From Leptospirales bacterium (lineage in GTDB: Bacteria > Spirochaetota > Leptospiria > Leptospirales > Leptonemataceae): a stretch of DNA of 47,483 nucleotides. Position numbers and translations under genes: made by a program. Positions 3,594 to 19,732 of this stretch are shown in pieces; within the stretch, counting starts at the first letter, position 1, and each line of letters begins with the position of its first letter. The DNA lies in contig JAIBBN010000021.1 of assembly GCA_019694655.1 (NCBI GenBank), forward strand, positions 1 through 47,483, read 5' to 3'. Under the pieces are notes generated by a model. It saw only the letters and a list, made by a program, of their open reading frames with translations, was not told the origin of the DNA and searched no databases.

Positions 3594-5966
3594 TCAAGGC
3601 GATAGCTGTGGCGGCAATACGACCAGCGGCATCGAGTCGCTGCGCCCGTGATCGTCCACCACCCGCAGCGTAAAGTCGCCGGTCGGCGCATCCCAGAAGA
3701 AAGATTCGCCAGGCGCCGCCGCGCCCAGGTAGGCGTCGTCGGCAAACCAGTAGAGACGACGTACGCCGCCATCGGCCACGGCGCTCAACGCCATTCGACG
3801 ATCGCGCAGCGAACCGTGTAATTGTTGGCTGGCGCCGCGCAAGGGAGAAGTGATGTGCGGCGGCGCTCCCTCCTGCGATGCGAACAGACACTCCGCTTCA
3901 AACTCCGGCGGCGCCGCGCGCGGGGCCCCGGCCTGAGCAAACAGCTCCTCCAGATCGCTGGGCCAGAATTCGTATACTTCGGAACGGACATGTTGACGGG
4001 CGCCGCAGACGCGCTTGCCGCTGCGCGCGTCCACCAGCGCCTCGCGGTGGATGTTGCAGCGCGCGATGGGCGAAACGCCGGGCAAGAACCAGGTCAGCCG
4101 CCGATGGGGGCAGTGGTCATTGGGCAGATCGCCGGAGACGGTGCAAACCTCCACCTGAGCGACGCCCGCTGGCGGATTGGCCGCTGCCGGATGACCGCGG
4201 CGATGGCCGGGACGACTGCGCATGGCATCTATGATGCGAAACATCAGCGGCGCCGCCGCCTCACGGCCGGACAGGTAGGGATTGGAACTGCCGTCGAAGG
4301 AGCCGGACCAGACAATTACTACGTAGTCATCAAATATTCCCGCGCTCCAGGCGTCGCGAAAACCCATCGAGGTGCCCGTCTTCCAGTAGACTGGAGATTG
4401 TTCGCTCAGGCCGGGCGTCAGGCCGCGGTTGGGGCGCGACGCCTGCCGTAATATGTCGAGCGTCAGGAAAGCCGCCTGTTCGGAAAACAGACGCTGCGAA
4501 GCGCCGCGCCACGCGTCGAGACTTCCACAGTTTCGCAGGCAGCTCCGCAGCGGCTGCATCTCGCCGCCGCGACCCAGCGCCACATAGAGTCGGGCCAGTT
4601 CCTCCATGGTAACTTCGGCGCCGCCCAGCGCGATAGCCAGCTGGTAGAAAGAGGGCGGCTTCATCTCGCCGACGCCGCTGCGCTGCAAGAGATCATAGAG
4701 CGAGGGATTGTGAACGCGCGAAGCGAGGTAAAATGCAGGGATGTTGCGGCTACGAATCAAAGCCGCGGTAGCGCTCAGCGGACCGCTGAAGTCGCGATCG
4801 AAGTTTTCAGGAACAAAGAGCCCGTAGCTTGCCGGCGCATCCTTGAGCAAGGTATAAGGATGGATGATTCCCTGCTGGAAGGCCAGCGCAAAAAGAAAGG
4901 GCTTCAGCGTCGACCCCGGCGAGCGCCGGGCGCGTACGCCATCGACCTGCCCCTGAATGCTGTCGTCCTTATAGCCTGCCGAACCCAGCCACGCCAGTAT
5001 CTCCGCCGATCGCAGGTCGACAAGAATCGCCGAAACATTGCGCACGCCTTGCGGACGAATCAACTGCAGATGAAGGCGGGCTTGCTCTTCTACAATCGTT
5101 TGAATACTTAAGTCCAGCGTAGTATGGACCTGGGTGGCATTGCTTTGAGCGAGGGCCAGCCAGGTCCAATGCGGCGCCCGAAAGGGCGGCGAAGTGCGAT
5201 GGACCTGTCCCGGCGATAGCGCGACCGCGGCCAGAGCGTCCCCTGGTCTGCTTTGCAGCCAGCGCTCCTGCAGGGCATCGCGGGCGCGGCGCAGCTCTTC
5301 ATTTTGCTGCTGGCCTGGCGCACGGCGCTCCGGGCTCTTGGGGATGACGGCCAGCAACAGGGCCTCGGGCAGGGAAAGCTGCGATGCCGGTTTTTGAAAA
5401 TAGATCAGGCTGGCCGCTTCAATGCCTTCAATGTTGCCGCCAAAGGGCGCCTGACTTAAGTAGTACGAAAGAATTGCGTCTTTGCTGTAGCGAAGCTCGA
5501 TCCACAACGCGATGAATATTTGCAACGCTTTGCCGCCGGGGCTGCGCGTCCGCAACCCGTAGCGCAGGCGCGCCGCCTGCATGGTGATGGTGGAAGCGCC
5601 GCCGCTGTCGCTGCCCCTCAGATAGGCACGCGCTGCACGCAGCAGCGCCACAGGATTCAGCCCCGGATGCAGGTAAAACCACCGGTCCTCCTGCAAGAGA
5701 ATTGCGGCTCGCATTGGGCTGGAGACGCGCGCCTCATCGAAGGGCAATCGCCGCATTTGATCAGCGGTCAAGGTCAGGCGCAGCAGACGGCCATCGCGAT
5801 CGTAGACAGCGCGCGAGTATCCGCCAGGCGGCGTAAGTGGAATCATCCAGCCGCTGAGCCGCATCGCCGCCACAATCAGCGCGGCGACCAACAGGCTGTG
5901 GCCCCACGCTTGCCGGGCAAAAGCTGCAGCATAGCGCTGGCGCCATGCTGCAAGGCGCTGGATCAA
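3594..5966 (-). CDS. pbpC: Penicillin-binding protein 1C (bifunctional class A PBP)
   Basis: This 790-residue inner-membrane enzyme polymerises lipid II into glycan strands (GT51 domain) and has a transpeptidase domain. A membrane anchor lies at about 22-42. The glycosyltransferase carries QEDRWFY with catalytic E93 and GGASTITMQ (122-130). The transpeptidase has SPGSTLK with nucleophile S352, SRN at 406-408 and KTGTS from 529. The C-terminal ~90 residues match the PBP1C-specific domain (ITSPLRG ... FFWDAPTG). Length is normal for PBP1C (about 770-800). Its start overlaps the end of the alpha-2-macroglobulin gene by 4 nt (ATGA on the minus strand). This pairing is conserved across Proteobacteria and others and is taken to link peptidoglycan repair with protease trapping. 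All catalytic residues are present, so it should be active. Confidence 0.95.
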   Translation of the reverse strand: MIQRLAAWRQRYAAAFARQAWGHSLLVAALIVAAMRLSGWMIPLTPPGGYSRAVYDRDGRLLRLTLTADQMRRLPFDEARVSSPMRAAILLQEDRWFYLHPGLNPVALLRAARAYLRGSDSGGASTITMQAARLRYGLRTRSPGGKALQIFIALWIELRYSKDAILSYYLSQAPFGGNIEGIEAASLIYFQKPASQLSLPEALLLAVIPKSPERRAPGQQQNEELRRARDALQERWLQSRPGDALAAVALSPGQVHRTSPPFRAPHWTWLALAQSNATQVHTTLDLSIQTIVEEQARLHLQLIRPQGVRNVSAILVDLRSAEILAWLGSAGYKDDSIQGQVDGVRARRSPGSTLKPFLFALAFQQGIIHPYTLLKDAPASYGLFVPENFDRDFSGPLSATAALIRSRNIPAFYLASRVHNPSLYDLLQRSGVGEMKPPSFYQLAIALGGAEVTMEELARLYVALGRGGEMQPLRSCLRNCGSLDAWRGASQRLFSEQAAFLTLDILRQASRPNRGLTPGLSEQSPVYWKTGTSMGFRDAWSAGIFDDYVVIVWSGSFDGSSNPYLSGREAAAPLMFRIIDAMRSRPGHRRGHPAAANPPAGVAQVEVCTVSGDLPNDHCPHRRLTWFLPGVSPIARCNIHREALVDARSGKRVCGARQHVRSEVYEFWPSDLEELFAQAGAPRAAPPEFEAECLFASQEGAPPHITSPLRGASQQLHGSLRDRRMALSAVADGGVRRLYWFADDAYLGAAAPGESFFWDAPTGDFTLRVVDDHGRSDSMPLVVLPPQLSP

Positions 5967-8900
5967 GGCCTGGCTGCCACGCGCAGTCGTCCCGGCGATG
6001 GCATCACTGCGCGCACCGCACGATCATACATTCCTTCGGCATAGGCCGGCGGGATCACGTACTCTCCGGGATTTGTAGCTCGAATACGGTAGCGAAACTC
6101 GCGCAGGCGATCATCGGCGCTGCCGTATAGAATGATGCGATCTTCGCGCACATCGACATTCTCCGGCCGCCAGCTGAACTCCGCGCGCGCACTGTCGATC
6201 TGCGCCTCGAAGCCGCCCGGAATCAAATCGACGACGGCCACATTGCTCTGCGTCGAACCGATGCCGCGGATGCGCAGGACGACCTGCAGGTCTTCGCCGG
6301 CGGCGGCATGATCGGTCGCCTGCCCCTCAAGATTTTGCAGTTCGCGAAAAATCTCCAGCGATTCCTTGCTGGCCTCCGCGGGCAAGCGCCGGTCAAATCC
6401 GCTTTGCACCGCCTGATAAAACAGGGGCAGCGCAGAGCGGTTGGCCAGGCGCAATACACGCGTTTGTGGCGCAAAGTCCAGCTGCGGAAAAAGCCCGCGC
6501 GGGATGCTCAACTCGCTTTGCGTTCCGTTTTCCAGAATTTGCAAGGCCTGGACATCCAGCGGCTGCTGGCTGGCTTGAGCAGCCAGCGCATCCAGGGCAA
6601 AAATGGTCATCGCCGCCGACAGACTGTTGAAGCTGTTGGCATAAACCGGACGCAAGGTGCGCTGCAGCAGATCGGCGTTGGCGCGACTGAGCTGATCCGG
6701 AAAATGTTTAGCAACAATATAGAGAAAGGTCGCGTCGCGCAGCAAGCCATCGTAAAAGTGAGCATAGTCCGGACTGGTTGCGGACAGCGGATTGAAACGC
6801 GTGATCAGTTCCGCGGCCTGCGGTTCCTGACGCATCAGCTTATGGGCAGCGGCCAGATAGAGGGCAATGCTGTCCTGCTGCCAGCCCTCATAACGGGGCT
6901 CCGCAGCCAGTTTGCGTCGAAGGGCAAGAACTTCGTTCGATACCACCTGACCGTTGCGGGCCCGCAGATAGAGGGCGAAGGCGCGGGAACGCAGATCCAC
7001 GGAGTCATTGACAGACATTTGCTCCAGATACTTCAGGCTGCGTTCCAGCAACTCCGGCGGCAATGGCCGTCCGCGCTCTTTCGCCTCAGTAAGAAACTGA
7101 ACGACATAGGCGCTCTGAAAGGGCGATACGAAGGAATTTGCCGACCAGAAGCCAAAGCCGCCTTCCGAATTCTGGCGGGCGCGCAACACGCGCAGAATGC
7201 CAGTGAACGCGGCGTTGGATTGCTCCGGATTCTGAACGAACTCCGCTCGATTGGCCAGGAGCATGTGCGGCGTTGCCTGAGAAACCAATTGCTCAGTACA
7301 TCCATAGGGATAGTTTCTCAGGTATTCCTGCAATCCGCGGGCCAGACCCAGCGGCAGACGCGACAGGCTGAGACTGTGTCGGCGAAACTGATCATAGGTG
7401 CGACGCGGCGTGGGCGCCTCGACAACTCCCGGTCCTGCAAAGCCGCCCGTGACCGAGGTGCGGTAGATGGTCGCCGGGCGTACGCTGAGCGTTGCGCTGA
7501 GCTGCGAACTCTTGCCGGCGCCCTCCACGCGGAAATGCAACTCTGCCGGACCAGGTTCATCGCGCGCCTGAACGCGGAAGACAGCGATGCGCTCTTTGCC
7601 CTCGGCGACGGTAAGCTTTTGTTCTGCATTTCCGGGAATACTCAGCGGCCCGCTGCTTTCGGCGCGAACTGTCAGCTGCGCGTTCTCGCCGCTGCCTTCG
7701 ACATTGTTGGCCACGCCAACGCTGACTTCGGCCACATCGCCCGGCGCCAGAAAGAGCGGCGCCGATGGCGTGATGACGAAATGATCCTGGATGATCGATC
7801 GCCGCTCTGTTGCGCCAATGGCCGCATCGGACACGGCCACCGCCATGACGCGCAGCGTGCCATTGAAATACTCCGGAACGCGGTACTGCAGGGTCCGAGG
7901 CGTGGCGTCGCTCTGGACAATGCCGGACCAGTAGACGGCCGGCGCCAGATTGCGTCGACGAAAAGGATTCAGGTTGCGGCCCAGATCGCCATCGTCGCCG
8001 CCGCCGGGGCGCGAACGGCGCAGCATAGAGTACTCCGGCAAAATCAAATCAAGGATCTGTGTGGTGCGCGTTTCCAGAGCCCGCTTTCGAAAGAAGTGAG
8101 CAAGCGGATCCGGCGTCTGGTAGCGCGCCACCTGAAGAATCCCCTCATCCACGGCAAAGACGGCAATCCTGCCGGGTTGCGAGGTGCTGTAAGTGATCGG
8201 AAAGTTGCGCCCGGGCAGCGCCTTATCCGGCGTCTGCAATTGGATGCGATTGGCCCGTCGCGCTCGACTGATGGAAAAGGGCTGCACCGCGTAACTGAGC
8301 GGAGCGCTGTAGACTTCCGGGCTGGCCGGGGATCGTATGAAGGCGACGTTTACGTAGGCGCTTCCTTCCAGACTGGCCGGAACGACAATGCTCTGTACTG
8401 TGGAGTTGGTCGAGGTCTGGAACCACTTGTGAGCGTAAACTCGATCACGTTCAATTGTAATCAGGCCGGCGCCCACGTACGGCGCTACAATATTGAGTCG
8501 GATTTCTTCGCCTGGCGCATAGTCACCCTTTTCCAGGCGCAACTGCAGCTCGGCCCCGCGATCCAGGCGGCCGGCCATAGTTCCGGCGCCGGCGATGCTA
8601 AAGGCAATATGATTTAACTCTAAATGGTTCGCGTCTTCAATATAAATGACAAAATCGCCTGGCGCCGAAGATGGCAAATTTAGCCGCAGGCCTGCTGCGC
8701 CAATATTGATCTTCTCCTCGCGCAGCGGAATCTCCCGACGGACGCTGGTATAGCGGTAGACGCCGTCCTCGGCGCGAGCCAGTACCGACACATAGCGCAC
8801 CTCAACGGTGCGCGCCGTCAAGGGGCCCGAAGAAGTGCGCTGAGCGTCGGGACCCACCGCAATCAAATCGACGCCGCGCGTGGCGCCGCGGGCGATGTAG

Positions 8901-11900
8901 TCCAGCGATCCATCGGCGCGATAGCCGATAACACGCTCCAGCGGCGACACCAGAATGCTGCGAATTGCCGTAACCGATCGGCCGCCGCCGCTTTCATAGC
9001 CCTCGGCTACGAAGGTCAGACGATAGGTAGAAGCGCCGAAGCGCTCCAGATGAAAATTGAAATCAGCGCGACCCTTTTCGTCGGCGGCCACAGCTTCCAG
9101 ACTCTCCTGGATGCGACGATCGGCGCGCGCCGGATCGTGAAAATTGTAACCTGGATAGCGTGCAAAGGCGAAGGCGGCCGGGGCAAGCTCCATCTCGCCG
9201 CTGATTTCGTTACCGCTGGCCGCCTGACCGAAGAGATGGCGCAGCTCCGCCACTCCGTGCAGATTGCGCGGCGAAACCCAGCCCTCCTCTGACTGCGCCG
9301 AGAAGGAAGCCCGAATCTGCATACGGTCCGGCTGAAACTCTTCGATGCGAAAGGAGGCGGCGCCGAGCAAGGATGCTCGACGTTGATCGCGCATTGTGTA
9401 GAGGTTGACCTGGTAGACGCCGGTGGGCGAGCCTGGATCGCTTTCAAATTTCAGCTCATGAAAGGCCTGGCGATTCAATCGCAACGGAGTGCGTTGCACC
9501 TCTGCGCCGCGCGCATCCACGATGCTCAGCTCCAGCGGCGCGCCTTCCAGGCGACGATTCCAGTCCCCGGACTTCACAATCAGGCCAATGTGCGCCTCCT
9601 CGCCCGGGCGATACAGGCCGCGGTCGGTAAAGAGAAAGGCCGTAAGCGTTTCCGGACGATCGGCGCCAACCACGCCGCCAATATCAAAGCGCGATAAATT
9701 CAGCTGCCGATCGCCGCGCGCGTAAGGCATGAAGGACACATCCGTTCCTTTGCGCAGCAAGAAGGCCGTTGGCTCCTTTTCACGCTGCAAATCGCGCAGG
9801 GACGGAATACTGACGCGACCTGTAGCGTCGGTCTTCGCCGACGCAACCGGCAGTCCGTTGCGGCCCAGAACCTCCACCTGCACGTCGCCCTCCGGCGTGC
9901 CGCGTGAGACACTTTGTACGAAGAGATCGCGTTCGCCGGAAGCAGCCTCTTTGACCAGCATGCCCAGATCGCTGACCAGCACAAAGCGCCGCTCGACGAC
10001 CAGCGGCCGCTCATCTTCATCTTCCTCCGCCTCATCCCAATCATCGCCTGAGGACCTATCGTCGCTTTGCGAGGCCGCCGGGTCCGGGGGAACATACTCG
10101 CTGAGTCGCAAGAAGAAGAGGCCGGTCTTGTCTGTACGCTGCGTCAGGTAGCGCGAAAAATCAAAGGCGAAGTATTGCACTTCGCCGCCGCTGGGCGGCG
10201 CCAGTCGCACGATTTCTTCAAAATGCTCCGCCAGATTGGTTTCGTTGAAACTATAACTGTTAAAGTAGGGATTCTGAAAATCGCCGCGCGTCTGGCTGAC
10301 CAGATGATTGATTTGATCCGGCAATACACGATCGATTTCAATTTTTACGGCGCGAACCCCGGAGGCGGCCACGCTGATCTTCTTTTCGCCCATCAAACTC
10401 AGCAGCGCGCCTTGCTGTTGTACGGCAATACGGCGCGGAAAGGGCGCCACCCGAAGGATCCGGACAAAGTCCTCGCGTAGCGTATAGCCGGCGAAGTTAC
10501 GCGCGCCGCGCTTGATGCGCACGTACAGCCATCTTCCGCCCTCTGCGGCGAAACGATAGGTATGTTCCCTGGCAAACTCCCGCTCGCCAGCGGCGGCCGT
10601 TAACTCGATGCGTTGCGACTGCCGCAGCAGCGCAGGATCAATTTCCTCTGGCTGCCACTCATGGCGCAGCTCGGCCTCTGTCCCCGGCGACGCGGCGCGA
10701 TCGCGAGGCAGCAGATAGGCTTCGAGGCCGCCTTGCACATCGCTATCGCGGGCCTCAGTCAAGGTGCTGATGGCCAGAACGCGCTCCAGTTGCTGGTCCT
10801 CGCCGCTGATCTCCTGCACGCTGGCATCTTCAATACGAAAGAGTTCGTCGCGCGCCGGCACGGACAATGCCTGACGGGCATCGTCTTCTGTCGGCTCACC
10901 GCCCAGTGTGCTCAGCATTCCCTCTGCGATCTGCAACTCGACCTGAAAGCGCTCTTCCGGCGGCTCAATGTTCTCTGATTGCAGGTAGGCTTCGGTCCGC
11001 GATTCATTGAAGTTCAACGTAAACGAAAACTCGCGGCCTGCGGTCCCGGGCAAAATTGACTTTTGCACCAGCCGCAGCCGCTGCTTGACGGTGCTGACGT
11101 CGATCGGATAATTAAAGTAAATCGTCCCGACAATTTGCTTGATATTGGGATTGGTATAGTCTACATAGAATTCCAATCGCTTAATCGTGACGTGCAGCGG
11201 CGGGATTTGGAAGCTCAGCGAGTAGTCATTGAGCGAGATTTGCTCGGCGTGCAAAACCGGCGCCATTCTGACCTGGTAGCGGCGACCTGGGCTCCAGTCG
11301 GCCGACGGCCAGAAGCTCAGCCGACGGTCATTGGTCCATTCCCAGCGGCCTGGATGCGTCGGCGAAAGTTCCACTCCCTGATCAACCGCTCTTCCAATTC
11401 GTTCGAGCGGCGCCACCGACTGGCCGAACTCCAGAATGACGGGCGACGGTCCGCGATTTTCGCCGGCGATGTAGGGCGCCGGCGGGGTTAGCTGCACTCC
11501 TACTCCCGGCGCACGCGGGAAAAAGACCGAACACAGGCCGCCGCTGACGACAAGAGCGCCGGTGGTTACGCCAAGGGCAAAGGCGCGAGCATAGGCTCGA
11601 GGACTGCGCTCGCGCCAGCGTTGCAGCGGAGCGCGAACGCGCTGCCCGAGCAGTGCTCTGGCAGCCGCCGCCATATGCGCCTTGCGTTGCCGCAGCGGTT
11701 CGAAACGGCGGACAATCCGCGCGCGCCAGGAAAAGATCCGCGCCGATAGCTGTCGCTGCAATGTGGCCTTGCGGTCCGCGAGGCTCGACCGGAGCTCCCG
11801 CCAGGCTCTCAACAGTCGGTTCCCGGATTCCGGCAGCCAGTCGGCATAGCGGTCCAGTTGTAGAAGCAGCCAGTGAATCAGAGCTTGCGGGTAGCGGCGA

Positions 11901-11923
11901 AACATGCGCCCATCAGGGCGCAC
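5963..11923 (-). CDS. Bacterial alpha-2-macroglobulin (YfhM-like protease trap)
   Basis: The product is a 1986-residue periplasmic protease trap. It contains MG-like beta domains, a bait region, and a thioester motif YGCTEQ with Cys at about residue 1542, followed by the alpha/alpha thioester-domain toroid. Cleavage of the bait exposes the thioester, which captures the attacking protease covalently. Unlike the usual lipoprotein form, this one starts with a basic ~115-residue extension rich in Arg and Trp, then a hydrophobic segment (about 115-136, ending GGLCSVFF). The residue before that Cys is Leu, so it is not a good lipobox and is probably a signal anchor. An acidic low-complexity stretch (DDWDEAEEDEDE) lies near residue 630. 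The start at 11923 is GTG; an ATG follows at 11905. It is 23 nt downstream of a lipoprotein gene and overlaps pbpC by 4 nt, so the three form an operon. Confidence 0.93.
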   Translation of the reverse strand: MRPDGRMFRRYPQALIHWLLLQLDRYADWLPESGNRLLRAWRELRSSLADRKATLQRQLSARIFSWRARIVRRFEPLRQRKAHMAAAARALLGQRVRAPLQRWRERSPRAYARAFALGVTTGALVVSGGLCSVFFPRAPGVGVQLTPPAPYIAGENRGPSPVILEFGQSVAPLERIGRAVDQGVELSPTHPGRWEWTNDRRLSFWPSADWSPGRRYQVRMAPVLHAEQISLNDYSLSFQIPPLHVTIKRLEFYVDYTNPNIKQIVGTIYFNYPIDVSTVKQRLRLVQKSILPGTAGREFSFTLNFNESRTEAYLQSENIEPPEERFQVELQIAEGMLSTLGGEPTEDDARQALSVPARDELFRIEDASVQEISGEDQQLERVLAISTLTEARDSDVQGGLEAYLLPRDRAASPGTEAELRHEWQPEEIDPALLRQSQRIELTAAAGEREFAREHTYRFAAEGGRWLYVRIKRGARNFAGYTLREDFVRILRVAPFPRRIAVQQQGALLSLMGEKKISVAASGVRAVKIEIDRVLPDQINHLVSQTRGDFQNPYFNSYSFNETNLAEHFEEIVRLAPPSGGEVQYFAFDFSRYLTQRTDKTGLFFLRLSEYVPPDPAASQSDDRSSGDDWDEAEEDEDERPLVVERRFVLVSDLGMLVKEAASGERDLFVQSVSRGTPEGDVQVEVLGRNGLPVASAKTDATGRVSIPSLRDLQREKEPTAFLLRKGTDVSFMPYARGDRQLNLSRFDIGGVVGADRPETLTAFLFTDRGLYRPGEEAHIGLIVKSGDWNRRLEGAPLELSIVDARGAEVQRTPLRLNRQAFHELKFESDPGSPTGVYQVNLYTMRDQRRASLLGAASFRIEEFQPDRMQIRASFSAQSEEGWVSPRNLHGVAELRHLFGQAASGNEISGEMELAPAAFAFARYPGYNFHDPARADRRIQESLEAVAADEKGRADFNFHLERFGASTYRLTFVAEGYESGGGRSVTAIRSILVSPLERVIGYRADGSLDYIARGATRGVDLIAVGPDAQRTSSGPLTARTVEVRYVSVLARAEDGVYRYTSVRREIPLREEKINIGAAGLRLNLPSSAPGDFVIYIEDANHLELNHIAFSIAGAGTMAGRLDRGAELQLRLEKGDYAPGEEIRLNIVAPYVGAGLITIERDRVYAHKWFQTSTNSTVQSIVVPASLEGSAYVNVAFIRSPASPEVYSAPLSYAVQPFSISRARRANRIQLQTPDKALPGRNFPITYSTSQPGRIAVFAVDEGILQVARYQTPDPLAHFFRKRALETRTTQILDLILPEYSMLRRSRPGGGDDGDLGRNLNPFRRRNLAPAVYWSGIVQSDATPRTLQYRVPEYFNGTLRVMAVAVSDAAIGATERRSIIQDHFVITPSAPLFLAPGDVAEVSVGVANNVEGSGENAQLTVRAESSGPLSIPGNAEQKLTVAEGKERIAVFRVQARDEPGPAELHFRVEGAGKSSQLSATLSVRPATIYRTSVTGGFAGPGVVEAPTPRRTYDQFRRHSLSLSRLPLGLARGLQEYLRNYPYGCTEQLVSQATPHMLLANRAEFVQNPEQSNAAFTGILRVLRARQNSEGGFGFWSANSFVSPFQSAYVVQFLTEAKERGRPLPPELLERSLKYLEQMSVNDSVDLRSRAFALYLRARNGQVVSNEVLALRRKLAAEPRYEGWQQDSIALYLAAAHKLMRQEPQAAELITRFNPLSATSPDYAHFYDGLLRDATFLYIVAKHFPDQLSRANADLLQRTLRPVYANSFNSLSAAMTIFALDALAAQASQQPLDVQALQILENGTQSELSIPRGLFPQLDFAPQTRVLRLANRSALPLFYQAVQSGFDRRLPAEASKESLEIFRELQNLEGQATDHAAAGEDLQVVLRIRGIGSTQSNVAVVDLIPGGFEAQIDSARAEFSWRPENVDVREDRIILYGSADDRLREFRYRIRATNPGEYVIPPAYAEGMYDRAVRAVMPSPGRLRVAARP

Positions 11924-14876: not shown

Positions 14877-15995
14877 TCAATGACCCATATTCCAGCTCAG
14901 CAACTGCTGAAACAAACGCGGAAAACGTCCAAGCAAAGCTACGCTTGGATTCCACAACCACGGCCGGCGAATCAAGCTCAGCGCCAGCGGCGTAAGCCAG
15001 CGATAGTTTCTCGTAGCCTGGCGATGACGACGCGCATAGCGACGCAGGGCCGCGCTCAGCGCGCTGGATTGTAGTTCCACGCCCTCCAGCGACTGGGCCA
15101 GCAGCAAGGCCTCCTCCAGCGCCAGGCTGATGCCCTCGCCCGTACAGGCGTCGATGTATCCGCTGGCATCTCCAATCAATGCAGAACGCTCTGCACAGAC
15201 CTTGTGCGCGCGCGCCGCCAGCGGACCGACGGCGGCCAGCTCGTCAGCCGGCGCGGCGTGCTGCACGCGCTCTTGCAATTCAGGAAAATACTGCAGCAGC
15301 TGGCTCAACAATTGTGCTTTGCCGCCTTGCGGCCGGAAGCTACGCACATCCCACAGAAAAGCCAGCTCCACTTCGTCCTCGCCGGTTGGCGTTACATAGG
15401 CCTCCGCGCCGTGAGCGGCGTAAACTTCCACCAGGTCGCTCCATGGTTTCAGTTGAAAGTGTTGCCGCGCGCCCCAGCGCCGCGGACCGGGCGCCGGGCG
15501 TTCCAGACCGGCCAGGGCGCGCACTCGCGAGCGAAAGCCGTCGGCGCCGATCAGCAGCGGAGCGCGAAACTGCAAGCCGCCAGCCTGCAGGCGAACGCCG
15601 CTGGACTCTGCGACGAAGGACTCCAGCGGAGTCGAGCAGTACACTTTGATTTGCTCCAATTGTGCGGCGCGCGACTGCAGTGCAGCCGAAAGCGTCTGGC
15701 GACGCATGCCCAGGCCTGGCCCCTCGCGAAAACAAGCCTCGGCGCGCCGACCGCTGCAGCTGATATAGCGAATGCCATAAAAGGGTCGCGATGCGCCGCG
15801 AACGATGTGCTCCACTACGCCCAGTCGCTGTAGTGACGCCACGCCTACCGGCATCAATCCCTGACCGCAGACCTTGACCTGTGGCAGCGTCGACTTTTCC
15901 AGAATGATAGAGCGACGACCCTGCATCGCCAGCGCTATGGCCGCGGCCAGTCCGGCAGGGCCGGCGCCGACAATCAGGGCTTCGCACTCATTCAT
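14877..15995 (-). CDS. FAD-dependent oxidoreductase of the type III PKS operon
   Basis: This 372-residue flavoprotein is of the geranylgeranyl-reductase / aromatic hydroxylase superfamily. The FAD Rossmann motif GAGPAG lies at 10-15, the KVCGQGLMP loop near 42-50, GADGFRSRVR near 150, and the second FAD motif IGDASGYIDACTGEGI near 275-290. The start is MNECEALIVGAG at 15995; an open frame to 16112 is antisense-like leader inside the ligase gene. The start overlaps the end of the upstream ligase by 8 nt. Flavoprotein hydroxylases accompany type III PKS and methyltransferases in known phenolic-lipid operons (srsABC of Streptomyces griseus), where they oxidise the resorcinol ring. Ring hydroxylation or quinone formation here is inference; a reductase acting on an alkyl or prenyl chain is the alternative. 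Confidence 0.85.
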   Translation of the reverse strand: MNECEALIVGAGPAGLAAAIALAMQGRRSIILEKSTLPQVKVCGQGLMPVGVASLQRLGVVEHIVRGASRPFYGIRYISCSGRRAEACFREGPGLGMRRQTLSAALQSRAAQLEQIKVYCSTPLESFVAESSGVRLQAGGLQFRAPLLIGADGFRSRVRALAGLERPAPGPRRWGARQHFQLKPWSDLVEVYAAHGAEAYVTPTGEDEVELAFLWDVRSFRPQGGKAQLLSQLLQYFPELQERVQHAAPADELAAVGPLAARAHKVCAERSALIGDASGYIDACTGEGISLALEEALLLAQSLEGVELQSSALSAALRRYARRHRQATRNYRWLTPLALSLIRRPWLWNPSVALLGRFPRLFQQLLSWNMGH

Positions 15996-17691
15996 CGCGG
16001 CGCGATTCAGCCAGCGTTTCCAGCAGACCGGCCAGATACAGGCGGGCGGCGGCGCCGCGCCGCACCTTGCCGCTGGTAGTGCGCGGCAGCTTGCCGGCCT
16101 CCAGCACGCCAACGCGCTCCGGGATCAAGCCGGTGGCGGCGATGATTGCCTCGCGCGCCGCTCTGGCCAGCGCCGCCGCATCGGCCTTGCCGCGCTCCTT
16201 TTCGGCCAGTAAGACGAAACCCTCCGAAGCGCGGCGCTCATCGGCGATGGCAAAGGCGACAGCTCGATCGTGTTGCAGTCCGCCAGCGCCATGCACGGCG
16301 TGTTCGATCATCGCCGGATCATGGTTGCGGCCATGAATGATAATAACATCCTTTTCTCTACCGTAGATGTATAGTTCGTCTTCGTATATGAATCCCAGAT
16401 CGCCGGTATCGAGCCAGCCATTGCGCAGCGTTTGCGCTGTGGCCTCTGGACGCAGGTAATAGCCGCTCATTACCGATGGGCCGCGCACAAATATCTTTCC
16501 CACCGATCCCTCAGGCGCGGCCTGGGCGCTGGCGTCGCGTAGCTCGACTTCTACGCCAGGCAGCGGTCTGCCAACGCTGACCACGCGCAGCCGACGCGAT
16601 TGTTCTGCATCTCCGGCAATGGACAGCGCACGGCCCTCGGCCAGCGCCGTGCGATCGAGGTTGGCCGCCTGTGGCGCGCGACCGATGGCGCTGAAGGTAA
16701 CGGCCAGCGTCGCTTCGGCCAGGCCGTAGACCGGCGTGAAGGCCTCATAGCGAAAACCACATTCTGCAAAACGCTCTGCAAAACGACGCAGCGTCGCCTC
16801 GTGTACCGTCTCCGCGCCGATCAACGCCATTTGCAGCCGACTCAAATCAAGGCCGACAAGATCCTCCTGGCGAACACGTTCAGCGCACATCTGCAGCGCA
16901 AAGTTGGGCGCCGGACTGACTGTGGCGCCGCTTTCGCTCAGGGCCTGAAGCCAGAGCGCCGGACGCGCAACAAAATCCTCCGGTCGCACCAGGGTGATAT
17001 CGCCAGGGGCCACAAAGGCCGTGATCAAGCCGCCAATCAGGCCCATATCGTGATGCAGCGGCAGCCATGAACAGCCGCTGTGATCGCTGATCGCCCCGGG
17101 AAAAACGCTGAGTATGGCGCGCGTATTGGCCAGTAGATTGCCGTGACTGAGGGCGATGGGCTTCGGATCGACGGTTGTGCCGCTGGAAAACTGAATGAGG
17201 GCGATGTCCTCTGTCTTTGATTGGCAGCCCGGCAAGGCCGCGAGGCTGGAATCCAGATCAGGCAGATTGTCGAGCGCATCGGATTCGTCGATGGCAAGCA
17301 GACCCAGCTCGCAGGCGCTTGCGGCGCTCTGCAACTGCTTGCGCGAGGCTTCTTCAGCCAGCACGACGCGAGCGCCCGCGGCGCGGAGCAGCGCGCTGGT
17401 AGCGCCGCTGTAATCGGCCATGCGTCCCAGGCGCGGCGTCGCCAGGCAAAAGGGTCGCGCCTTCAGCAGAAAGAGGGCAAACAGGGCGCGAACAAACTCA
17501 AAACCGGTGGGCGCTATCAAAGCCGCGGCATCGTCGGCGCGCAATCCCTGCTTGTGCAATTGCTCCGCAAGCAGTATGGCCTCGGACAGCAATTGGGCAA
17601 AACTTTTGCGCACCACGCTGCCATCGCGCCCGAAAAGACGTACGCCATAGTCGCTGTCGGCGGCGCGGCGCAACGCCTGGATCAGATTCAT
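15988..17691 (-). CDS. Fatty acyl-AMP ligase-like adenylating enzyme
   Basis: This 567-residue ANL-superfamily enzyme activates a carboxylic acid as acyl-AMP. Motifs in order: P-loop FSSGTTVDPKP (168-178), SWLPLHHDMGLIGG (about 208-221), which is typical of fatty acyl-AMP ligases, the YGLAEAT core motif (about 325), GWLDTGDLGF (about 425), and the C-terminal LPRTTSGKVRR with its candidate catalytic Lys near 547. The family transfers the acyl group to an acyl carrier protein rather than to CoA. The gene order fits this: the ACP gene directly upstream overlaps it by 4 nt, and the flavoprotein gene downstream by 8 nt. I infer that it loads a fatty acid onto the neighbouring ACP as a starter for the type III PKS. 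A CoA ligase cannot be excluded from sequence alone. Confidence 0.88.
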   Translation of the reverse strand: MNLIQALRRAADSDYGVRLFGRDGSVVRKSFAQLLSEAILLAEQLHKQGLRADDAAALIAPTGFEFVRALFALFLLKARPFCLATPRLGRMADYSGATSALLRAAGARVVLAEEASRKQLQSAASACELGLLAIDESDALDNLPDLDSSLAALPGCQSKTEDIALIQFSSGTTVDPKPIALSHGNLLANTRAILSVFPGAISDHSGCSWLPLHHDMGLIGGLITAFVAPGDITLVRPEDFVARPALWLQALSESGATVSPAPNFALQMCAERVRQEDLVGLDLSRLQMALIGAETVHEATLRRFAERFAECGFRYEAFTPVYGLAEATLAVTFSAIGRAPQAANLDRTALAEGRALSIAGDAEQSRRLRVVSVGRPLPGVEVELRDASAQAAPEGSVGKIFVRGPSVMSGYYLRPEATAQTLRNGWLDTGDLGFIYEDELYIYGREKDVIIIHGRNHDPAMIEHAVHGAGGLQHDRAVAFAIADERRASEGFVLLAEKERGKADAAALARAAREAIIAATGLIPERVGVLEAGKLPRTTSGKVRRGAAARLYLAGLLETLAESRRDE

Positions 17692-17951
17692 ACTGTTTCG
17701 CCTTCGCGCAAGCGCTGTAGCAAAAGCTGCAGCACATCATCCACGGTGCGCGGCGCTTGATCCGGCGTTTCACCCAGACGGATACGATAGCTATTTTCGA
17801 GTTCCACCGCCAGGGTCAAAAGGCCGACGGAGTCCAATCCCAGGTCCTCGGCCAGACGGCTCTCCGGAAGCGCCGTTTTCTGTACGGCGCAATGTTCGCG
17901 CAACACCTGACGCACGCGCTCCAGCAGCTCTTCCGTCGATGGTTGACCCAT
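17688..17951 (-). CDS. Acyl carrier protein of the type III PKS operon
   Basis: This 87-residue acyl carrier protein has the phosphopantetheine site in DLGLDSVGLL, with Ser41 modified by a holo-ACP synthase elsewhere in the genome. Around it are the usual four helices (ELLERVRQVLRE, then GLLTLAVELENSYRIRL, and VDDVLQLLLQRL). It sits 7 nt after the methyltransferase gene and overlaps the ligase by 4 nt. A dedicated ACP next to a fatty acyl-AMP ligase implies that the pair hands an ACP-bound acyl chain to the type III PKS, bypassing acyl-CoA. Confidence 0.93.
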   Translation of the reverse strand: MGQPSTEELLERVRQVLREHCAVQKTALPESRLAEDLGLDSVGLLTLAVELENSYRIRLGETPDQAPRTVDDVLQLLLQRLREGETV

Positions 17952-17958
17952 GCTTTGC

Positions 17959-18471
17959 TCAACGACCGTGAAGCGCGCGCACTTCTGCTGGAATGCGCAC
18001 CGCCATCAAGGCCGCATTCAGCACGCTGAATACCACGGCCGTCATCCAGCCGCCGTAGATCAGCGGCGCTCCCGCCAGCTCCAGGGCTACGCCAACGTAG
18101 TTTGGATGTCTCAAGTATTTGTAAATCCCGTGGCTGACCGGCGCATGGTCCGGCAGAGAGTAGATGCGCACCGACCAGCGCGAACCGAGCGTGCGAATAG
18201 CGGCCGCGCGCAAGAGCTGACCGGCAAGCAGCAGTACGGCGCCAATGACAGTCAATGGCAAGGTCGGCGTTGCGAAAAAGGACTCCAGCGCCATACTGGG
18301 AAACCACAATATGTGCATGGCCTGCATCCAGCGAAAATGCTGGCTGCCATACTCGCGCCCGCCGCGCAGACGCATCCAGGCCTCGTTGTCTCGCGATAGC
18401 CGCAGTTCAGCAATGCGCTGCTCGGCCAGCGCCAGGATCAAAACCAGAAAAGCAAATTGCGATAGATGCAT
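17959..18471 (-). CDS. Isoprenylcysteine carboxyl methyltransferase-like membrane protein
   Basis: This 170-residue membrane protein of the ICMT/PEMT-like superfamily has hydrophobic segments at about 5-18, 50-65, 72-92 and 135-155. The diagnostic C-terminal motif is GIYKYLRHPNYVG (about 115-128), which binds S-adenosylmethionine, and the preceding LGSRWSVRIYSLPDHAPVSHGIY is typical of the subgroup found with type III PKS genes. In Streptomyces the equivalent protein SrsB O-methylates alkylresorcinols. The gene is 9 nt after the PKS and 7 nt before the ACP gene. An O-methyltransferase acting on the polyketide at the membrane is the likely role; the acceptor position is unknown. Confidence 0.87.
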   Translation of the reverse strand: MHLSQFAFLVLILALAEQRIAELRLSRDNEAWMRLRGGREYGSQHFRWMQAMHILWFPSMALESFFATPTLPLTVIGAVLLLAGQLLRAAAIRTLGSRWSVRIYSLPDHAPVSHGIYKYLRHPNYVGVALELAGAPLIYGGWMTAVVFSVLNAALMAVRIPAEVRALHGR

Positions 18472-18480
18472 CCCTACCCC

Positions 18481-19539
18481 TCAGAAACGAATCAGCACCG
18501 CCTCGGCGCAAAAGGCCGGCCCCATGGCTACCAGCACCCCGTAGCTGCCGCGGGGCGGGCGCTTGCGCTCCAGACTCTCCTTTAATATGAAGAGTACGGA
18601 AGCCGAGGAAAGATTGCCGACTTCGGCCAGACTCTGTCTGGAAAGCTCCAGCGCGTCCTCCGGCAGGTCCAGCGCTTCTGCCATGGCCGAAATAACTTTC
18701 GGCCCGCCGGGATGGGCGATCCACAGAGCGATGTCCTTGAGTTTCAGCCCGTGATCTGCCAGGAAGTCCTCAATACCGGGCCGCAGGTGTGCGGCTGCAA
18801 AACTGGCGACCTCCGAGGAGAGAACGATCTTAAAGCCGGTATCAACCACGTCCCAGCCCATCACCCGCTCCGAATCCGGAAAGAAGATGGCTCGTGAATC
18901 GATGGTCTCCGGCATCTCCGGGCGCACTGCCGGATGATCCTCGCCCAGCATCAATACTGAGGCCGCACCGTCGCCAAACAGTCCGCTGGAAACAATATTG
19001 GCGATGGACAGATCTTCGCGCTGCAAAGTCAAAGAGCAGAGTTCCACTGAAAGTAACATGCCGGCCTCGTCGCTGTGGTTCAAGTAGTCGTGCAGACGTG
19101 CAATGCCGGCGGCGCCGGCCAGACAGCCGAGGCCAAAAACGGGCGTACGTTTCATGTGCCGCGGGAAAGGCATGCGATTCATTAAACGCGCTTCAATGGA
19201 AGGCACAGCCAGGCCGGTGATAGTTGTGGAAATAAAATGATCGATTTCCAGCGCCGGCAGCTGCGCCTGCTGCAGCGCGGCGCGCGCGACGCGCTCGCCT
19301 ATTTCCAGAGCGGCAGTCGTCCACGCGGCGTTGGTCTTGCCCAGACCCTGCAGCTGGCGATACTCTTCCAGCGGCAGTGACAGACAGCGACCGCCGACCA
19401 GCACGTTACGATGAAACTGCTCGATTCGATCAAGATTGAAGTGCCGTTCGGACCACAGATCGCGAAAGGCGGCAATCAATTCGTCCTGACTGTAACGATG
19501 GGGAGGGAGTGCCGAAGCAACGGCGGCGATTCTGGGCAT
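18481..19539 (-). CDS. Type III polyketide synthase (chalcone/stilbene synthase family)
   Basis: This 352-residue homodimeric condensing enzyme extends a starter acyl chain with malonyl units and cyclises the product without its own ACP. The Cys-His-Asn catalytic triad is intact: C139 in FGLGCLAGAAGIAR, H276 in WIAHPGGPKVI and N309 in EVGNLSSASV. The conserved tail GVLVAMGPAF is present. Length and motifs match bacterial alkylresorcinol/alkylpyrone synthases more than plant enzymes. It is the first gene of a minus-strand operon with methyltransferase, ACP, acyl-AMP ligase and flavoprotein. The expected product is a long-chain alkylresorcinol or alkylpyrone, a phenolic membrane lipid. Chain length and ring type cannot be read from the sequence. 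Confidence 0.93.
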   Translation of the reverse strand: MPRIAAVASALPPHRYSQDELIAAFRDLWSERHFNLDRIEQFHRNVLVGGRCLSLPLEEYRQLQGLGKTNAAWTTAALEIGERVARAALQQAQLPALEIDHFISTTITGLAVPSIEARLMNRMPFPRHMKRTPVFGLGCLAGAAGIARLHDYLNHSDEAGMLLSVELCSLTLQREDLSIANIVSSGLFGDGAASVLMLGEDHPAVRPEMPETIDSRAIFFPDSERVMGWDVVDTGFKIVLSSEVASFAAAHLRPGIEDFLADHGLKLKDIALWIAHPGGPKVISAMAEALDLPEDALELSRQSLAEVGNLSSASVLFILKESLERKRPPRGSYGVLVAMGPAFCAEAVLIRF

Positions 19540-19609: not shown

Positions 19610-19732
19610 TCAGGCAATGCCCAATACGGCTGTAAGTTGTTGTAAATCGGGCCAGTCTCTCGCAAGATTCACAGTCAGCGTTGTCTTGCCGACTCCGCCC
19701 TTGAAGTTGATCACTGCGATCTGCCGAGCCAT
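19610..19732 (-). pseudogene. ParA/MinD-type ATPase N-terminal fragment (40 codons)
   Basis: A minus-strand frame from ATG 19732 to TGA 19610 reads MARQIAVINFKGGVGKTTLT, then VNLA, and continues RDWPDLQQLTAVLGIA before stopping. The first ~24 residues are a perfect ParA start with the deviant Walker A box KGGVGKTT. The remaining 16 residues have none of the expected second strand (RVLLIDxDPQ), nor do I see it in the following ~70 bases. It is therefore most likely the stub of a deleted parA gene, lying 71 nt upstream of the PKS operon. A 40-residue expressed leader peptide is a less likely alternative. Confidence 0.6.

Follow-up and report, generated by a model that had tools for sequence, protein, structure and literature searches.

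The five closely packed genes at 14877–19539 raise the question of whether a relative of Leptospira builds a phenolic lipid on a type III polyketide synthase (PKS), how the fatty acid would reach that enzyme, and whether a pathway of this kind is new. The window, meaning the whole 47,483-nt stretch of DNA that was analyzed, belongs to the 3.92-Mb, 33-contig draft genome of an uncultured Leptospirales lineage (Spirochaetota); a sequence-only reading had correctly supposed a spirochaete host. Gene content, conserved residues, and gene neighborhoods suggest that the five-gene set probably makes a fatty-acid-derived phenolic lipid, with the type of pathway already known and the host new. We consider it likely that the locus is a spirochaete copy of the phenolic-lipid operon typified by ftp of Myxococcus xanthus, with a fatty acid loaded via acyl-AMP and acyl-ACP and with tailoring like that by SrsB and SrsC.

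Operon architecture and gene content

The genes form a tight operon in the following order:

18481–19539, minus strand: type III PKS, FtpA/PKS11-like (352 aa; Pfam PF02797/PF00195, Chal_sti_synt_C/N, above cut-off)
17959–18471, minus strand: ICMT-family membrane methyltransferase (170 aa; Pfam PF04140, 93 bits; putative SrsB/BpsB-like role)
17688–17951, minus strand: stand-alone acyl carrier protein, ACP (87 aa; Pfam PF00550 PP-binding, 22 bits; Ser41 in LDS)
15988–17691, minus strand: fatty acyl-AMP ligase, FAAL (567 aa; Pfam AMP-binding, 179 bits; best NCBIfam model, fatty acyl-AMP ligase)
14877–15995, minus strand: FAD-dependent monooxygenase-like, class-A-like flavoprotein (372 aa; Pfam PF01494 FAD_binding_3, 88 bits; putative SrsC-like role)

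Gaps of 9 nt (18472–18480, PKS/methyltransferase) and 7 nt (17952–17958, methyltransferase/ACP) are followed by overlaps of 4 nt (17688–17691, ACP/FAAL) and 8 nt (15988–15995, FAAL/flavoprotein), the latter presuming that the flavoprotein starts at the ATG at 15995 and not at the upstream TTG (16112) given in the mechanical list of open reading frames. These coordinates and spacings had been read earlier from the letters alone and proved exact to the base, and the gene identities proposed with them were borne out by Pfam models that exceed their cut-offs for all five proteins, in the case of the ACP barely (cut-off 20.8 bits). The catalytic motifs of the PKS and ACP are likewise intact, as had been claimed. 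A promoter scan found one candidate versus 1.2 expected by chance, and so nothing above chance.

The minus strand of the window has two other features. At 19611–19732, between GlmS and the operon, a short stretch that resembles the N terminus of ParA (MARQIAVINFKGGVGKTTLTVNLARDWP...) and ends in a stop looks like a gene remnant, and a large open reading frame at 5963–11923 (1986 aa) resembles, by eye, a protein of the alpha-2-macroglobulin type.

The type III PKS and its probable loading partners

The PKS carries the Cys139-His276-Asn309 triad of type III enzymes, and its chalcone-synthase fold is indicated by the Pfam matches and by a full-length alignment with its best solved relative, Mtb PKS11 (7.5e-91); CylI is another close solved relative. 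Both the triad and Trp229 are kept among relatives, Trp229 in every row of the family alignment. A Trp at the equivalent position has been linked to resorcinol formation (PMC5916927), but PKS11, an alpha-pyrone synthase by name, has this Trp as well, and sequence therefore does not decide between the ring types.

The best PDB matches of the ligase are FAALs (3pbk, 5.2e-75). Residues W209, P211, M216, and F264 together with the FAAL-specific helix (FSH, PEDFVARP) align with the CoA-rejection elements of the E. coli FAAL, where W209, M216, F264, and the FSH correspond to W224, M231, F279, and T252–R258. The bulky W, M, and F and the helix are those expected of a plugged CoA pocket, and the CoA-rejection residues are conserved in the family (56 rows), which rules out a plain acyl-CoA ligase mistaken for a FAAL. 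Since the ligase keeps all CoA-rejection residues checked, it is very likely that loading proceeds via the ACP and bypasses CoA, in line with the CoA-independent loading that the sequence-only reading had put forward. The study describing these elements also showed acyl transfer for an M. xanthus FAAL-ACP pair, not necessarily the ftp pair (PMC8460268). Furthermore, D40 and S41 of the ACP are invariant (68 rows), and the genome has two AcpS-type phosphopantetheinyl transferase matches, making a holo-ACP plausible.

Comparison with known systems

Supply of a type III PKS by a built-in FAAL-ACP pair had been singled out as unusual in the sequence-only reading. Hayashi et al. reportedly described fatty acyl-AMP ligase loading of the type III PKS FtpA of M. 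xanthus in 2011 (ChemBioChem 12:2166), as passages citing that work relate, and the gene order of the window operon is widespread among Myxococcota and Acidobacteriota. Together, the published FtpA loading and the widely shared operon order rule out novelty of this loading mode; the pathway type is a known one.

The M. xanthus ftp cluster resembles the window operon in its type III PKS, methyltransferase, acyl-AMP ligase, and monooxygenase genes and differs in that the window host is a spirochaete, while likeness in the ACP and in the five-gene order is read from a relative, Myxococcus sp. RHSTA-1-4 (locus L055). For a cluster in Acidobacteria Mor1, agreement with the M. xanthus alkylresorcylic acid pathway has been published for both gene content and gene order, with identities of 58% (PKS), 54% (methyltransferase), 54% (ligase), and 47% (monooxygenase) (PMC5006271). 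The identities of Mor1 to L055 (59.7% for PKS, 53.0% for methyltransferase, 56.4% for FAAL, and 47.6% for flavoprotein) are near these published values, so L055 very probably carries an M. xanthus-type cluster. Identity to the L055 proteins is 54.5% for the window PKS and 42–55% across all five, and the five genes stand together in a single-strand order that is identical in the L055 and Corallococcus loci. In a phylogenetic tree, the window PKS groups with FAAL-associated PKSs from myxobacteria and acidobacteria.

The srsABC cluster of Streptomyces griseus and the pks10 cluster of M. smegmatis also combine a type III PKS with a methyltransferase and an oxidoreductase, but these are three-gene sets without FAAL or ACP, as are two Streptomyces loci (L104 and L105; PKS-ICMT-FAD only), whereas in the window the ACP and FAAL genes are placed between those for the methyltransferase and the flavoprotein. 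The cylindrocyclophane pathway starts from a stand-alone FAAL (CylA) and ACP (CylB) and ends with a type III PKS, CylI (PMC11837247), but has type I PKS modules between the ACP and CylI that are absent from the window operon. The hidABC genes (hierridins) and planctomycete alkylresorcinol operons share a methyltransferase, an oxidoreductase, and a type III PKS with the window, but differ in gene order, and the parts of the source that deal with them do not mention a FAAL or ACP (PMC10896814).

Distribution and inheritance

The sequence-only reading had proposed searching genomes for a conserved set of these five genes, and the arrangement proved widespread. When 84,980 genomes were scanned on the basis of the PKS, 239 relatives emerged, of which the best 80 were taken further; among 96 loci examined in all, 44 had the exact five-gene order (40 after dropping four duplicate pairs), and the remainder include loci interrupted by contig ends or with one gene moved. 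Most carriers of the exact order belong to Myxococcota, Acidobacteriota, or the spirochaete family of the host, five other genomes of which have it unchanged, while Mor1 (L064) has the same five genes in slightly different order. This recurrence across genomes rules out a chance neighborhood.

Within the host family, a sixth genome (G012; loci L026 and L127) has a split operon, with the methyltransferase, ACP, FAAL, and flavoprotein genes on one contig and a full PKS gene alone on another; a C-terminal PKS fragment lies ~13 kb from the four-gene set. In genome G011, the operon lies divergent beside GlmS, as it does in the window, and several genes further upstream are common to both, a pattern consistent with vertical descent in two genera and with our reading of the operon as vertically maintained.

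The window PKS falls within an 83-row group (support 100) that holds the Myxococcus and Corallococcus PKSs, and within it sits with its own family beside one record labeled Planctomycetota, in a quick tree with several open forks. In a record titled Planctomycetota (L040), the PKS is one of those closest to the spirochaete family, which reflects either transfer or a mislabeled bin. In another Planctomycetota record (L109), the catalytic Cys is aligned with Gly, and the methyltransferase and flavoprotein genes are divergent from PKS-ACP-FAAL. Apart from the 83-row group stands a second type III PKS of other Leptospirales (L028–L035), ~27–35% identical to the window PKS, with an ICMT gene adjoining it at L028 and L029 and FAAL or ACP near none of these loci. 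Some members of the window PKS clade have PKS-ICMT-FAD without FAAL or ACP nearby (the Streptomyces loci L104 and L105, as well as L071, L072, and L095), so the enzyme has no obligatory link to loading through an ACP. FAAL presence on the PKS tree needs at least eight changes, a count that includes the split G012 operon and distant paralogues; the loading pair has thus been gained or lost repeatedly, and the count gives no direction.

Proposed pathway and alternatives

In the pathway that we propose, the FAAL would convert a free long-chain fatty acid to acyl-AMP, rejecting CoA, and would load the acyl chain onto the phosphopantetheine arm of the ACP encoded in the operon. From there the chain would go to the type III PKS, to be lengthened by malonyl, or possibly methylmalonyl, units and cyclized to an alkylresorcylic acid or alkylresorcinol. 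By analogy with the srs pathway, in which SrsC has a recognized role, methylation and hydroxylation would follow: the ICMT-type enzyme may carry out O-methylation, which SrsB couples with decarboxylation, and the flavoprotein may hydroxylate the ring to give a methoxy-alkyl-hydroquinone or quinone in the membrane. A cited paper credits SrsB in its title with decarboxylative methylation of alkylresorcylic acid, and ICMT orthologues adjoin the PKS in relatives of the window operon. The srsABC-like tailoring logic proposed earlier thus finds support by analogy, while the final steps, the product, and its membrane role are what we infer from the gene set.

The FAAL-ACP pair could instead serve another pathway while the PKS takes acyl-CoA or acyl-ACP from fatty acid synthesis (FAS), as might be expected from the same-clade PKSs that have no such pair and from the description of FtpA as acting on long-chain acyl-CoA (PMC5916927). 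This is improbable given that, in different phyla, tailoring genes flank the FAAL and ACP genes within the operon, that the operon FAAL is the only FAAL-like match >100 bits in the genome, and that pairwise identities of the five proteins co-vary (Spearman 0.59–0.85), with PKS and FAAL at rho 0.85. With loading by the operon's own pair retained, the product might alternatively be an O-methylated alkylpyrone, as with BpsA/BpsB of B. subtilis. Bacillus ICMT-type enzymes reportedly methylate pyrones too, according to the title of a cited paper, and the name of PKS11, the best solved relative, points the same way. Furthermore, a conserved myxobacterial type III PKS cluster has been assigned to alkylpyrones (PMC12766979). 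However, the operon matches the genes of the M. xanthus alkylresorcylic acid pathway, Trp229 is conserved, and the conserved flavoprotein, which resembles ring hydroxylases, suits a resorcinol better than a pyrone, making a pyrone product unlikely.

The flavoprotein itself might be a geranylgeranyl-reductase-like enzyme acting on an unsaturated chain, since its best NCBIfam match is the geranylgeranyl reductase superfamily (TIGR02032), although at 103 bits this falls below the cut-off of 158.8. We regard this as rather unlikely: the nearest solved structures are FAD monooxygenases (6sw1 and 2x3n, weak matches at 1e-12 in the PDB search), and the homologous myxobacterial gene has been described as a monooxygenase (PMC5006271).

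Implications for Leptospirales

In the literature searched, no description of a phenolic lipid in this spirochaete was found. The locus extends FAAL-ACP-loaded type III PKS operons to Spirochaetota and marks the operon as a widely shared, conserved cassette, not a Myxococcus peculiarity, while clade members without FAAL and ACP offer a natural comparison for shifts in loading specificity. More tentatively, the operon might give these Leptospirales a methoxylated alkyl-hydroquinone or quinone, a phenolic membrane lipid that the literature searched does not describe for spirochaetes and possibly an extra redox carrier like the mycobacterial polyketide quinones. A quinone product would point to a lipid with a redox-carrier or envelope role that was not expected in relatives of Leptospira.
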